Positions 6,404-11,589 of a stretch of 64,000 nucleotides of DNA are shown here, one piece after another. The stretch lies in the NCBI GenBank assembly GCA_026627305.1, contig JAPNVD010000005.1, positions 1-64,000 of the forward strand, in the 5' to 3' direction. The first letter of the stretch is position 1. Each line of letters begins with the position of its first letter. The notes under the pieces were generated by a model. It did not search any database. It worked only from the letters and a program-made list of their open reading frames with translations, and was not told where the DNA came from. Position numbers and translations under genes: made by a program. The stretch comes from Sulfolobaceae archaeon. Its GTDB lineage: Archaea > Thermoproteota > Thermoprotei_A > Sulfolobales > Sulfolobaceae.

Positions 6404-6547
6404 AATTAATTTGTTAAATATGATCATTTATAAATTTTACTAACAAATTACTTACTTTTTACATAAAAATTTTTATCATTGCTAATTATCATCTTGCTAA
6501 CAGCTCAACGATCTCTTATAAATGTGTTTTTACTATTTATATATCTG

Positions 6548-8239
6548 ATGGAACGGCTTGATAAGATTAAGAATTTAATGGCATACGCTGATGATGTGGC
6601 TATTAAATATTCTCAAGATGGCAAGATCATAGGTAGGGTCACAAGGTTTTATTACGTTAAGGTGGGGAACAAACCCCTGATAAGAATAGATATTCCCTTC
6701 GAGAACTACGTGGAGAGACCCGTAAAGATGGGAGAATACATAGCAGTGGTTTCCATAGTTCCTAAAGCCATTATTTTAGGTATAGTTGATGAGATCGACA
6801 GGGCTGATGCATTGGCTAACCTGGGTATAAAGACTATAAAGAGCTCTGAGGATCCATCAACGATGGCTACTGATGCCTCAATAATCCTTAGACCTCTAGG
6901 TGAGATAAGGTTTGACGTTAAAGATAAGGTTATTATGTTCGAGAAGGTTACGCCTAGTGTTTCACCAATAGATCCACAGTCCCCAGTCTTCATACCAAAA
7001 CCTGAAATCATTTACACAGTTTTCGGTATACCTCCGAGAGGTGTTTCCATAGGGAATATTATTAGTGCGTTTGAGCCAACAGAAGTAGAGGTTAACTTTG
7101 ATACTAAACTGTTACGCCATCATTTGTTAATAATAGGAACTACAGGTGCTGGAAAGACCACACTGTTGAAGACACTATTTTACATGAATTACAGAGCTGG
7201 GAACCAGAGCATTGTAGTTGATAGGCAAGGGGATTTCGTGAAGTTTATGATGAAGTTCTTTAACGACGGCGATGTAATACTGCCAGTAACTCAGAGAATA
7301 GCAGAGGAGTACAAGAACGATTTCAAAGAATTGGTTAGTAGTAGGTACTGCAGTAATTCAGCTTATGAGTATGATAAAAGCATAATAGCCTGTGAGCCTA
7401 AAGAGGGTAAGCTCATTAAATTCTATCTCTTCTCGCTAAAGTTCTCTGAAGCCTTCAAGGAGCTCCCTAACCTATTCCCATATATGTCTGATCAAGCTAT
7501 GGCTTATTGGAATATGATAGTTGAGAGGGCAAACAAATTAAAAGTAGATTTTAACCAACCCTTTAATAACGTAATCAATACGTTGAATAGAAGTGTGATA
7601 GCACCTATAACTTCAAATGAATTGGCACCATCTACTAAACAGAGCATTGAAAGGGTAATTAATGGCTTAGCAAGTTATGGAATATTTGATGTAAATGGGA
7701 CTATTAAAGATGACAGATTGTTCGATATATTAACGCATAGCTCCAACATCGTTATTGACCTATCGTTCGTCCTCGAGTCAACAGCACTGGTTGAGCCTAT
7801 AAGCATATTAGCTTACAAGATACTCGATATCCTCTACGATTATAAGGATCGTCAATATAAGACTAGTCCAAACCCTGATCAAATCCAGCACACGCTCCTA
7901 ATAATAGATGAAGCCCATGAGCTTTTCCCACAAGTGAGACAAGAGGCATCTAAGGAGACCGTAGAGGCCTTGGTGAACAGGATCTTAAGGTTGGGAAGAC
8001 AGAGAAATCTAGGCGTTGCCTTAGCCACTCATGTTCCCAAAGACTTAAATCCCCTAGTCCTACAGTTGACCAACACTAAGATAATAATGAGAAATGATGA
8101 GAACGTATTGAAGGACTTAGGAGTTGAGGAATATGCAGACGTTTTAGAATATGCACCTCCTGGCACTGGTCTAGTGAAATCGAGCTTCTTCAATAACTCT
8201 GAGTTCCTAATAAAGGTGAAGAATATTGAATCTGAATGA
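6548..8239 (+). CDS. HerA-type DNA translocase/helicase ATPase
   Basis: Walker A IGTTGAGKTTLLK, Walker B LLIIDEAHELFP, LGRQRNLGVALATHVPKDL, N-terminal HAS-barrel-like region; ATG at 6548 preferred over the ORF-track start. Confidence 0.88.
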   Translation: MERLDKIKNLMAYADDVAIKYSQDGKIIGRVTRFYYVKVGNKPLIRIDIPFENYVERPVKMGEYIAVVSIVPKAIILGIVDEIDRADALANLGIKTIKSSEDPSTMATDASIILRPLGEIRFDVKDKVIMFEKVTPSVSPIDPQSPVFIPKPEIIYTVFGIPPRGVSIGNIISAFEPTEVEVNFDTKLLRHHLLIIGTTGAGKTTLLKTLFYMNYRAGNQSIVVDRQGDFVKFMMKFFNDGDVILPVTQRIAEEYKNDFKELVSSRYCSNSAYEYDKSIIACEPKEGKLIKFYLFSLKFSEAFKELPNLFPYMSDQAMAYWNMIVERANKLKVDFNQPFNNVINTLNRSVIAPITSNELAPSTKQSIERVINGLASYGIFDVNGTIKDDRLFDILTHSSNIVIDLSFVLESTALVEPISILAYKILDILYDYKDRQYKTSPNPDQIQHTLLIIDEAHELFPQVRQEASKETVEALVNRILRLGRQRNLGVALATHVPKDLNPLVLQLTNTKIIMRNDENVLKDLGVEEYADVLEYAPPGTGLVKSSFFNNSEFLIKVKNIESE

Positions 8240-9482
8240 AATAATGGAAGAGCTTAGACAGTTGGGGGTGTCAGCTAGACAGAACTCCATAAACAGCGTT
8301 GTAGTACAACAGGTAAGTGAAAGCCCTAAGCCCGAAAGCGATAAGATAAGGGTTGAGACGTTAGAGGAGTTCAAGATATTCAATTTATCCCTGAATAACG
8401 CCGTTAACGGAGTAAACTTCTCATCAATAGCTTCCCTGGACTCCTCCAGTAGGCTAATGAGGTCTACTTTCATAAGTTTAGGGATTGTCGGAGGCACTGT
8501 AAAGTCAGACACTAAGGGAATACTCAACTTCCCCTTTGATATAGATGGGAAGTTCGTCTACAGTATATCCTATCTAGAGCTGATGAGAAAGTTAGCTAAT
8601 GGAAACTTCAAGAGGGTTGAGTTCAAAAACCCAGTGGGCTACGAGTACGCGTTTGATGAGGTGGAATACGAAGATAGTAGCAATGATTCCCTTTATGATG
8701 TTAATGATATGTTAGATGAGGCTAGGTTAAGGGTTGAGAACGAGCTCATCAAGAGCGTAAATGATGACCTATTGATAATAGATGGTCCAATTTATCCCAC
8801 CCCAATTGAACTAGTTCCAACAGTCTTAACAAACTTCCCAAAGGATAAGGATTCGTTGAAACATTGGGGAAAGCCCACACATAGGTGGTCTATAGCTAGC
8901 TTAATATTGGAGAGGGTTAAGCTATTGAAGGATAGAAAGGCTATTGGTATAGTGAAAAGGTTGGAGAACTCGAGAAAGCTAGGTAAGGTTATACCAGGCT
9001 TGAGGGGTCTTGCCGATAACGAGGTTTTGGATATAATATCAGAAAAGAATTGTAGTAACGTAATTTATCCAGATCTATGTGTTGTAGGACCTCTTAAGCT
9101 CGTAGTAGATATTTCCGTTAGGAGGGATGATACATCCCAGGTTATATTAACTCCTAACGACCTACCACCTAGATATTCCTATTATGTGATCGTAAGGATA
9201 CCAGGAGGGATTAAGAGCTTCTTCAGGGTCGAGTCCTTTGACTTAAACGTCCTTCAGAATGCACTACCTATAGTGTTCAGCACTATTACCTACTCAGTGT
9301 TACCTCTATGGATAGAACAGGTGGACAATAGTGCGAAGAGAGTAGCTAAAGGGCTCTTTTACCTTTCCTTTAATGTCCTCAAGGATATATTGTCGTTCCT
9401 CCACGATACTAAACTAGCGGCTATTCAGATATCAAGAGAGATAGAAGCTGAGAAACAGAGCGCAATTAGTGAACTAAGTTAA
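8226..9482 (+). CDS. NurA domain nuclease (paralogous NurA)
   Basis: SIASLDSSSRLMRSTFISLGIVGG and DLLIIDGPIYPTPIELV match the two acidic NurA motifs; overlaps the HerA stop by 14 nt. Confidence 0.8.
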   Translation: MNLNEIMEELRQLGVSARQNSINSVVVQQVSESPKPESDKIRVETLEEFKIFNLSLNNAVNGVNFSSIASLDSSSRLMRSTFISLGIVGGTVKSDTKGILNFPFDIDGKFVYSISYLELMRKLANGNFKRVEFKNPVGYEYAFDEVEYEDSSNDSLYDVNDMLDEARLRVENELIKSVNDDLLIIDGPIYPTPIELVPTVLTNFPKDKDSLKHWGKPTHRWSIASLILERVKLLKDRKAIGIVKRLENSRKLGKVIPGLRGLADNEVLDIISEKNCSNVIYPDLCVVGPLKLVVDISVRRDDTSQVILTPNDLPPRYSYYVIVRIPGGIKSFFRVESFDLNVLQNALPIVFSTITYSVLPLWIEQVDNSAKRVAKGLFYLSFNVLKDILSFLHDTKLAAIQISREIEAEKQSAISELS

Positions 9483-9520: not shown

Positions 9521-10543
9521 ATGAAATATGTGAGATTGGGAAACTCGGGTGTAAAAGTCTCTCAACTCTGCTTGGGAACTTGGTTTTTGCCTCTATTACC
9601 GGAAAAAGATGAGTACGGTGTATATAAAGTAGATAGGGATATTGCGTTGAAGATATTTAAAAAAGCATATGATGAAGGAATAAACTTCTTTGATACAGCA
9701 AATGTATACCACGGTGCGCTTTGGGATACAGACCCAATTCATGTGGGCAACTCAGAGAGGCTTGTTGGGGAGTTCTTATCCACTATTGATAGGGAATCAA
9801 TTGTTCTATCAACTAAAGTTAGAGGCAAAATGGCGCCTTGGATTAACGGTGAAGGGCTTTCTAGAAAGCACATAATGTGGCAAATAAAGGAAAGTCTGAA
9901 GAGGTTGAGGACTGACTATGTTGATATTTATATAATCCATTGGCCAGATCCTGACACACCTAAACTTGAGACTTTGAAGGCGTTGGATGACCTAGTGAGG
10001 CAAGGTAAGGTACATTATTTGGGGATAAGTAACCATGACGCTATGGACGTTTTGGAATTCCTAGAACTGAGCGAGAGGTATGGACTAGAACAGTTTAGGG
10101 TTATCCAAGACCTATATAACCTAATCGAGAGATACGTTGAAAGGTATAAGGTTGATATAGCTAAAAAATACGGAATGGCAATAATGGCTTACGCACCACT
10201 AGCCCACGGTTTTTTGACTGGCAAATATGTTGACTTCCAGAAAAAGACCTGGAGGGTAGAGGAGCTCAGCAGGATTGGGATGTATGAGAGGTTAAAGGAT
10301 AGGTACTTTAAGGAGAGTAACTTAAAGGTTATATTAACGCTAAAGGAGATAGCTGATGAAAAAGGTGTAAGCTTATCTCAAATTGCTATAGCCTGGTTGA
10401 TAAAGAGAAGTGAGGAGTTCAACGTGCCCATAATACCAGTAATTGGTGTAAGTAAGCCTGAGCACCTGGAGGACAACCTTAACGCAATAAACGTTAACCT
10501 CACTTCAGACGATATGAAGAGGATTGAAAAGGCGTTCACTTAG
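9521..10543 (+). CDS. Aldo/keto reductase
   Basis: FFDTANVYHGAL, STKVRGKMA, DYVDIYIIHWPDPDTP, YAPLAHGFLTGKY. Confidence 0.92.
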   Translation: MKYVRLGNSGVKVSQLCLGTWFLPLLPEKDEYGVYKVDRDIALKIFKKAYDEGINFFDTANVYHGALWDTDPIHVGNSERLVGEFLSTIDRESIVLSTKVRGKMAPWINGEGLSRKHIMWQIKESLKRLRTDYVDIYIIHWPDPDTPKLETLKALDDLVRQGKVHYLGISNHDAMDVLEFLELSERYGLEQFRVIQDLYNLIERYVERYKVDIAKKYGMAIMAYAPLAHGFLTGKYVDFQKKTWRVEELSRIGMYERLKDRYFKESNLKVILTLKEIADEKGVSLSQIAIAWLIKRSEEFNVPIIPVIGVSKPEHLEDNLNAINVNLTSDDMKRIEKAFT

Positions 10544-10918: not shown

Positions 10919-11188
10919 TTGATGCCCATAATAACGGTTAGAATAGATGAAGAGTTGAAGAGGAAGATGGACGAGTTAAGTTATATAAACTGGAGTGAAG
11001 TGATAAGGAGGAGTATAATTAACGTAATAGAAGAGGAGAGCAAAAAGAAGAGGGAGCAGAACAAAAAGAAGGATTTAGAGAGGATAAAGAGGGCTTCTTT
11101 GGAGGCTGAGGAGTTTTACAACTATTTAGGTGGTAAGGAGTCCACAGAGACCATTAGGGACTGGAGAGATAGGAATTGGCAGTCGTAG
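10919..11188 (+). CDS. vapB: VapB-type antitoxin (ribbon-helix-helix)
   Basis: PIITVRIDEELKRKMDELSYINWSEVIRRSIINVIEE RHH motif; overlaps the PIN gene. Confidence 0.85.
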   Translation: MMPIITVRIDEELKRKMDELSYINWSEVIRRSIINVIEEESKKKREQNKKKDLERIKRASLEAEEFYNYLGGKESTETIRDWRDRNWQS

Positions 11189-11589
11189 ACGCTTCAGTTG
11201 TGATTAAATGGTTTGCTAAAGAGAATTATAGTGAGGAGGCGAACAGGTTAAAGAGGGCTTACGCTGACGGACTAATAGACCTTAATGCACCTTGCATACT
11301 ACCCTTTGAAGTCATCAATGGGTTAAAATACACTTATAGCCTAGGGGAAGTTGAGCTGCTATCCATTTCAAAGATTTTGGAGGATTTCCAAATAAACTAT
11401 TATAACTACTATGATTTTTATGAGGAGCTTGTAAGCCTCTCGTTAAAGTACGGTATTACGATTTATGATTCCGCATATGTAGCTCTAGGAAAGGTCTTGA
11501 ACGATGAAGTCTATACTGCTGACGAGAAGCTATTGAGGAAAGTAAAGGATTTGAGCTTCGTCAAACACATAAAGGATTTTAGGGTATAG
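11176..11589 (+). CDS. vapC: VapC-type PIN-domain toxin
   Basis: AVVDASVVIKWFAKE, LPFEVINGL, ITIYDSAYVALG, YTADEKLL PIN motifs. Confidence 0.88.
   Translation: MAVVDASVVIKWFAKENYSEEANRLKRAYADGLIDLNAPCILPFEVINGLKYTYSLGEVELLSISKILEDFQINYYNYYDFYEELVSLSLKYGITIYDSAYVALGKVLNDEVYTADEKLLRKVKDLSFVKHIKDFRV

Follow-up and report, generated by a model that had tools for sequence, protein, structure and literature searches.

A diverged HerA-NurA gene pair of a Sulfolobaceae archaeon and the CRISPR linkage of its relatives

HerA and NurA of the Sulfolobales have been discussed almost entirely as an essential repair pair. In the window, the whole 64,000-nucleotide stretch that was analyzed here (contig JAPNVD010000005.1 of an uncultured Sulfolobaceae archaeon adapted to heat and acid), a herA-like and a nurA-like gene lie together (Table 1) with no mre11 or rad50 near them, as a sequence-only reading of the same DNA had stated.

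Table 1. Features of the herA-nurA locus, with positions counted in the window
Feature	Position	Strand	Description
herA-like gene	6548..8239	+	563 aa, ATG 6548; predicted hexameric FtsK/HerA-type translocase ATPase, clade C
nurA-like gene	8226..9482	+	418 aa, TTG 8226; predicted RNase H-fold nuclease, clade C
putative TATA box TTATAAAT	6516..6523	+	25-32 nt 5' of herA ATG; read by eye

Identity and setting of the gene pair

Both products scored above the Pfam cutoffs, HerA with 62.7 bits against DUF87, the HerA central domain (cutoff 23.2), and NurA with 47.7 bits against the NurA family PF09376 (cutoff 21). Good AlphaFold (AF2) models were obtained, with pTM values of 0.83 for HerA and 0.81 for NurA. 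The 12 PDB structures closest in fold to the NurA model were all NurA/TM1739 structures, and the closest to the HerA model were HerA of T. kodakarensis and of S. solfataricus, the top match being HerA in the T. kodakarensis HerA-NurA complex (E value of 7e-24). The TM-scores of these matches were moderate (about 0.4 for NurA and about 0.6 for HerA), as one would expect of distant relatives; a PDB sequence search with the window NurA returned no NurA relatives. With both proteins over the Pfam cutoffs and both folds matching, the earlier pairing of a HerA-type translocase with a NurA-fold nuclease was upheld.

In an alignment with canonical HerA, the Walker A lysine (K203), D225, the Walker B residues D454-E455, the arginine finger (R484), and the sensor residues were all kept. 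K203, D225, E455, and R484 correspond to K154, D176, E356, and R381 of the canonical protein, each of which is required in S. islandicus (PMC4351679). The active-site columns of NurA likewise retained D72 (canonical D58), E171, D186, and K244 (canonical K202), and the loss of NurA catalytic acidic residues, against which the sequence-only reading had measured itself, was not found (D72, E171, and D186 are in place). The canonical C-terminal His site (His302-equivalent) is occupied by Asp (D367), as it is in all of the noncanonical lineages B to E described below. Judged by their sequences, both window proteins look active, and because the catalytic residues are conserved, the pair likely acts like the solved complex.

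The 14-nt overlap of herA and nurA reported earlier holds if nurA starts at TTG 8226 and vanishes if it starts at the next in-frame candidate, ATG 8244; alignment with relatives mildly favours the TTG. A second in-frame start candidate for herA is TTG 6479. The position of TTATAAAT about 25 to 32 nt before ATG 6548 fits a leaderless transcript of the pair. An ANTTTC-like hexamer is a motif of DNA-damage regulation, and none was seen by eye in the region upstream of herA.

An aldo/keto reductase gene starts at position 9521, 38 nt 3' of nurA, as had been pointed out. No relative examined has such a gene beside the pair, and an operon with it was rejected because the arrangement is not conserved. 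Since neighboring genes are not common to different genera while herA and nurA stay adjacent, the reductase is best taken as a chance neighbor rather than a partner. The neighbors of the pair in the window are metabolic and include genes for a glutamine synthetase, an amidohydrolase, an acetyltransferase, a hydrolase, an MBL protein, and a U32 peptidase. Neither cas genes nor csx1 nor a CRISPR array was found around the pair; the cas genes of the source genome lie on other contigs. At positions 10919 to 11589 of the window, a small antitoxin-like ORF overlaps a PIN-domain gene, forming a VapBC-like toxin-antitoxin pair.

HerA-NurA lineages in the Sulfolobaceae

The source assembly (1.9 Mb in 41 contigs, 79.5% complete) contains three NurA homologues. 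A search of the whole genome located the canonical herA-mre11-rad50-nurA operon on contig C40 (locus L007), so that the window does not hold the canonical pair by default, and a further nurA-herA pair on contig C30 (L008). With the canonical operon on another contig of this genome, the window pair can be recognized as a diverged paralogue, which the sequence-only reading had supposed; given the C30 copy, it is a third pair and not the second. Such extra pairs are normal in the family, since 2 to 7 NurA homologues were present in every one of the 31 Sulfolobaceae genomes searched. In Pyrobaculum, at least three nurA-herA pairs have been described, one of them CRISPR associated as nurA-csm6-herA (PMC3396285).

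NurA and HerA trees built from 83 regions separated at least six lineages: A (canonical), B (C30-type), C (window-type), C' (the sister of C), D, and E. The window pair fell in a clade separate from the canonical one in both trees. It is not an orthologue of the canonical repair pair by these trees, nor by the NCBIfam HerA equivalog model (46.5 bits against a cutoff of 800), and it does not form an operon with mre11 and rad50. Clade C was found in 18 of the 31 genomes. Support for C plus C' was 100 (bootstrap) in the HerA tree, and in the NurA tree C was grouped with all of C' at a weak support of 38; the subclade of the window, G015, and G017 received 100 in both. The two trees place the C' locus L055 differently (NurA in clade C, HerA in C'), which leaves it ambiguous. 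Otherwise the HerA and NurA trees are congruent. The correlation of HerA and NurA distances within C and C' was 0.96, measured against shuffles that left species kinship uncontrolled, and indicates co-inheritance of the two genes. On this phylogenetic evidence, clade C is a distinct and real paralogous lineage.

The order of the two genes varies, being herA>nurA in the window and L039, convergent in L042 to L054, and nurA>herA in most of C'. Their adjacency is mostly kept across these layouts, the exceptions being G017 and G008, in which herA and nurA are no longer adjacent, and no third gene of clade C is conserved across genera. Among intact clade-C relatives dN/dS was 0.06 to 0.10, indicating purifying selection on the pair in those genomes. 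In three draft genomes, where sequencing error is possible, the pair was lost or broken: in G003, herA is interrupted by two nonsense codons; in G008, it is frameshifted; and only a nurA remnant is left in G006. The clade-C pair is for this reason considered accessory and dispensable. The herA of G003 (L047:6103-7896) has TCA-to-stop changes at codons 102 and 351, is otherwise about 90% identical to that of the intact G013 with its codons constrained, and looks like either a very recent pseudogene or a sequencing error.

Compared with the canonical HerA-NurA of S. solfataricus (SSO2251/SSO2248), the window pair shares both folds, the Walker A and B motifs, the arginine finger, the D/E/D/K set of NurA, and the close pairing of the genes. 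It differs in lacking mre11 and rad50, in forming a separate clade in both trees, in having Asp for the His302-equivalent, and in being dispensable. In this survey, several HerA-NurA lineages coexist in each Sulfolobaceae genome; their histories are separate and one is CRISPR linked, so that annotation by name ('HerA', 'NurA') merges different machines. The window pair itself is of an ordinary kind for the family, and is of mild evolutionary interest through the CRISPR link. No paper describing clade C, and no biochemical or phenotypic data on it, was found in the literature searched.

CRISPR linkage of relatives and a proposed role of the pair

At two C' loci (L056 and L058), the pair directly follows the type I-A genes csa3-csa5-cas7-cas5-cas3'-cas3''-csaX, those of L058 being assigned by homology to L056. 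These two occurrences of nurA-herA directly 3' of csaX (L056:1214-10013 and L058) come from two different Sulfolobales families. At two other C' loci, csa3 adjoins nurA (L117) and CRISPR arrays lie beside the pair (L081). In complete or near-complete genomes, loci no more than 20 kb from a cas marker (Cas1, Cas7, or Csa3) numbered 4 of 10 for C', 0 of 13 for C, 0 of 23 for the canonical lineage A, and 0 of 23 for the C30-type lineage B, in counts that are small and uncorrected for kinship. Within clade C, csx1 (CARF-HEPN) lies 38 nt upstream of nurA at L053 and L052, both from one genus, and L054 has a partial copy. At L042, the gene with an apparent Csx1 match had mostly Cas12f/TnpB-type matches and was taken for a transposon gene. 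The genomic context of the relatives points to CRISPR, and NurA/HerA have been listed among putative CRISPR auxiliary genes (PMC10910872). The defence role that the sequence-only reading had allowed for gains indirect support from these relatives; none came from the window itself.

The C' lineage (L056, L058, L117, L081) shares with the window pair an active-site signature of LDSSSR, DGPxxP, VKRL, and Asp for His. It is often beside cas genes or arrays, unlike the window pair. The best-matching defence models were those of PADLOC 'HerA/NurA, Type III coevolved' (PDLC01055/PDLC01056), to which the window pair scored 162 and 49 bits, compared with 675 and 323 bits for a true member, the Caldivirga pair, and 133 and 37 bits for the C30-type pair. 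Because its scores are far below those of the true member, the window pair is a relative and not a member of this CRISPR type III-associated family, whose linkage to an array, cas, csm6, or csx1 was seen in relatives of the pair and not in the window. The nurA-csm6-herA arrangement of the Thermoproteales (PMC3396285) has a counterpart in the csx1-nurA linkage of some clade-C relatives; unlike it, the window pair adjoins neither CRISPR nor csm6, and the trees keep it apart from the Caldivirga and Thermocladium pairs. The bacterial systems HerA-SIR2, HerA-DUF4297, and TdpAB also have a HerA-type ATPase ring that feeds or controls a nuclease, and the fold matches of the window HerA to them were significant. 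The partner here is NurA, in contrast to the SIR2 or DUF4297 of the first two, and the window HerA scored only 33.1 and 25.7 bits against anti-phage HerA models with cutoffs of 800 and 850.

According to the solved T. kodakarensis complex, ATP hydrolysis drives HerA to move double-stranded DNA in 60-degree steps into a NurA dimer, where both strands are cut (PMC12977600). We infer that the window proteins form such a complex, degrade DNA, and serve in defence. By homology, a HerA hexamer would use ATP hydrolysis to pump double-stranded DNA into a NurA dimer, which would separate and then cut both strands. Its most likely task would be to degrade DNA that is foreign or broken, such as DNA with ends produced by CRISPR interference. 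In the source genome, the pair would work as a stand-alone two-gene unit, leaving essential end resection to the C40 operon. Our best explanation, held with about even confidence, is accordingly worded as an intact, accessory, noncanonical, ATP-driven DNA-degrading HerA-NurA machine for which a link to CRISPR or defence is likelier than essential end resection. It is favored because relatives show CRISPR and csx1 linkage and because the pair is dispensable. We counted against it that no cas gene, csx1, or array occurs around the window pair, that none of the 13 clade-C loci is near a cas marker, that the PADLOC match is weak, and that the C30-type pair scores nearly as high. A more specific version, in which C and C' are antiviral DNA shredders of the Sulfolobaceae that act with type I-A/III CRISPR through interference-made ends or a csx1-type signal, the window lineage having turned into a two-gene defence module that stands alone and whose nuclease site is altered (Asp for His), is offered tentatively.

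The main rival, a possible though less probable account, is that the pair is a backup or specialized chromosomal end-resection enzyme, acting for instance at stalled forks or particular ends and duplicating the canonical role. Its fold and catalytic core are the same as those of the repair pair, it stands alone among metabolic neighbors, it is under purifying selection in relatives, and clade C occurs in its 18 genomes whatever their cas content, G017 lacking all three of the cas markers that were looked for. What tells against this account is that the sister clade C' is CRISPR linked and the canonical repair pair never is, that one genus has the csx1-nurA arrangement, and that three genomes have lost the clade-C pair or carry it broken, in contrast to the canonical set, which is essential (PMC4351679).

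That the pair is a decaying or inactive relic is improbable. The broken relatives (herA of G003 and G008, and the nurA remnant of G006) would agree with decay, but in the window both ORFs are full length with every catalytic residue present, and dN/dS between intact relatives is about 0.1. Least probable of all is a Ced-like or conjugative DNA-transfer component. HerA, VirB4, CedB, and CedD are members of one superfamily, and weak model matches were obtained, but the window HerA scored 43.5 bits against NCBIfam CedD (cutoff 600) and 28.7 against CedB (cutoff 700), its partner gene encodes a nuclease, and ced, ups, and plasmid genes are absent around the pair. The window NurA had no match in plasmids or viral contigs, on which ground a plasmid or viral origin was rejected, and the conjugation role once suggested for the pair was not borne out.

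Other observations on the lineages

Across the 31 genomes, 3 had both C and C', 15 had C only, 10 had C' only, and 3 had neither (Fisher P value of 0.001). This complementary distribution was set aside as a sign of equivalence since it follows genera.

Lineage E combines a short NurA (about 230 to 280 aa, with DRKLS for DGP) with an adjoining HerA of its own of about 580 aa. It was seen in most Sulfolobaceae genomes (L064, L067, L070, L074, L078, L083, L088, L092, L096, L099, L103, L108, L112, and L116), and no description of it was found in the literature searched. Lineage D looks like a separate five-gene HerA-NurA system, comprising a 618-aa protein, HerA, a 984-aa P-loop protein (weakly KAP/BrxC-like), a 268-aa coiled-coil protein, and NurA. 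This module is present in many Sulfolobaceae, at L087:331-8741 and also at L091, L073, L077, L082, L106, L111, L115, and L118. In G017, the gene for the clade-C HerA is convergent with an adjoining lineage D module.
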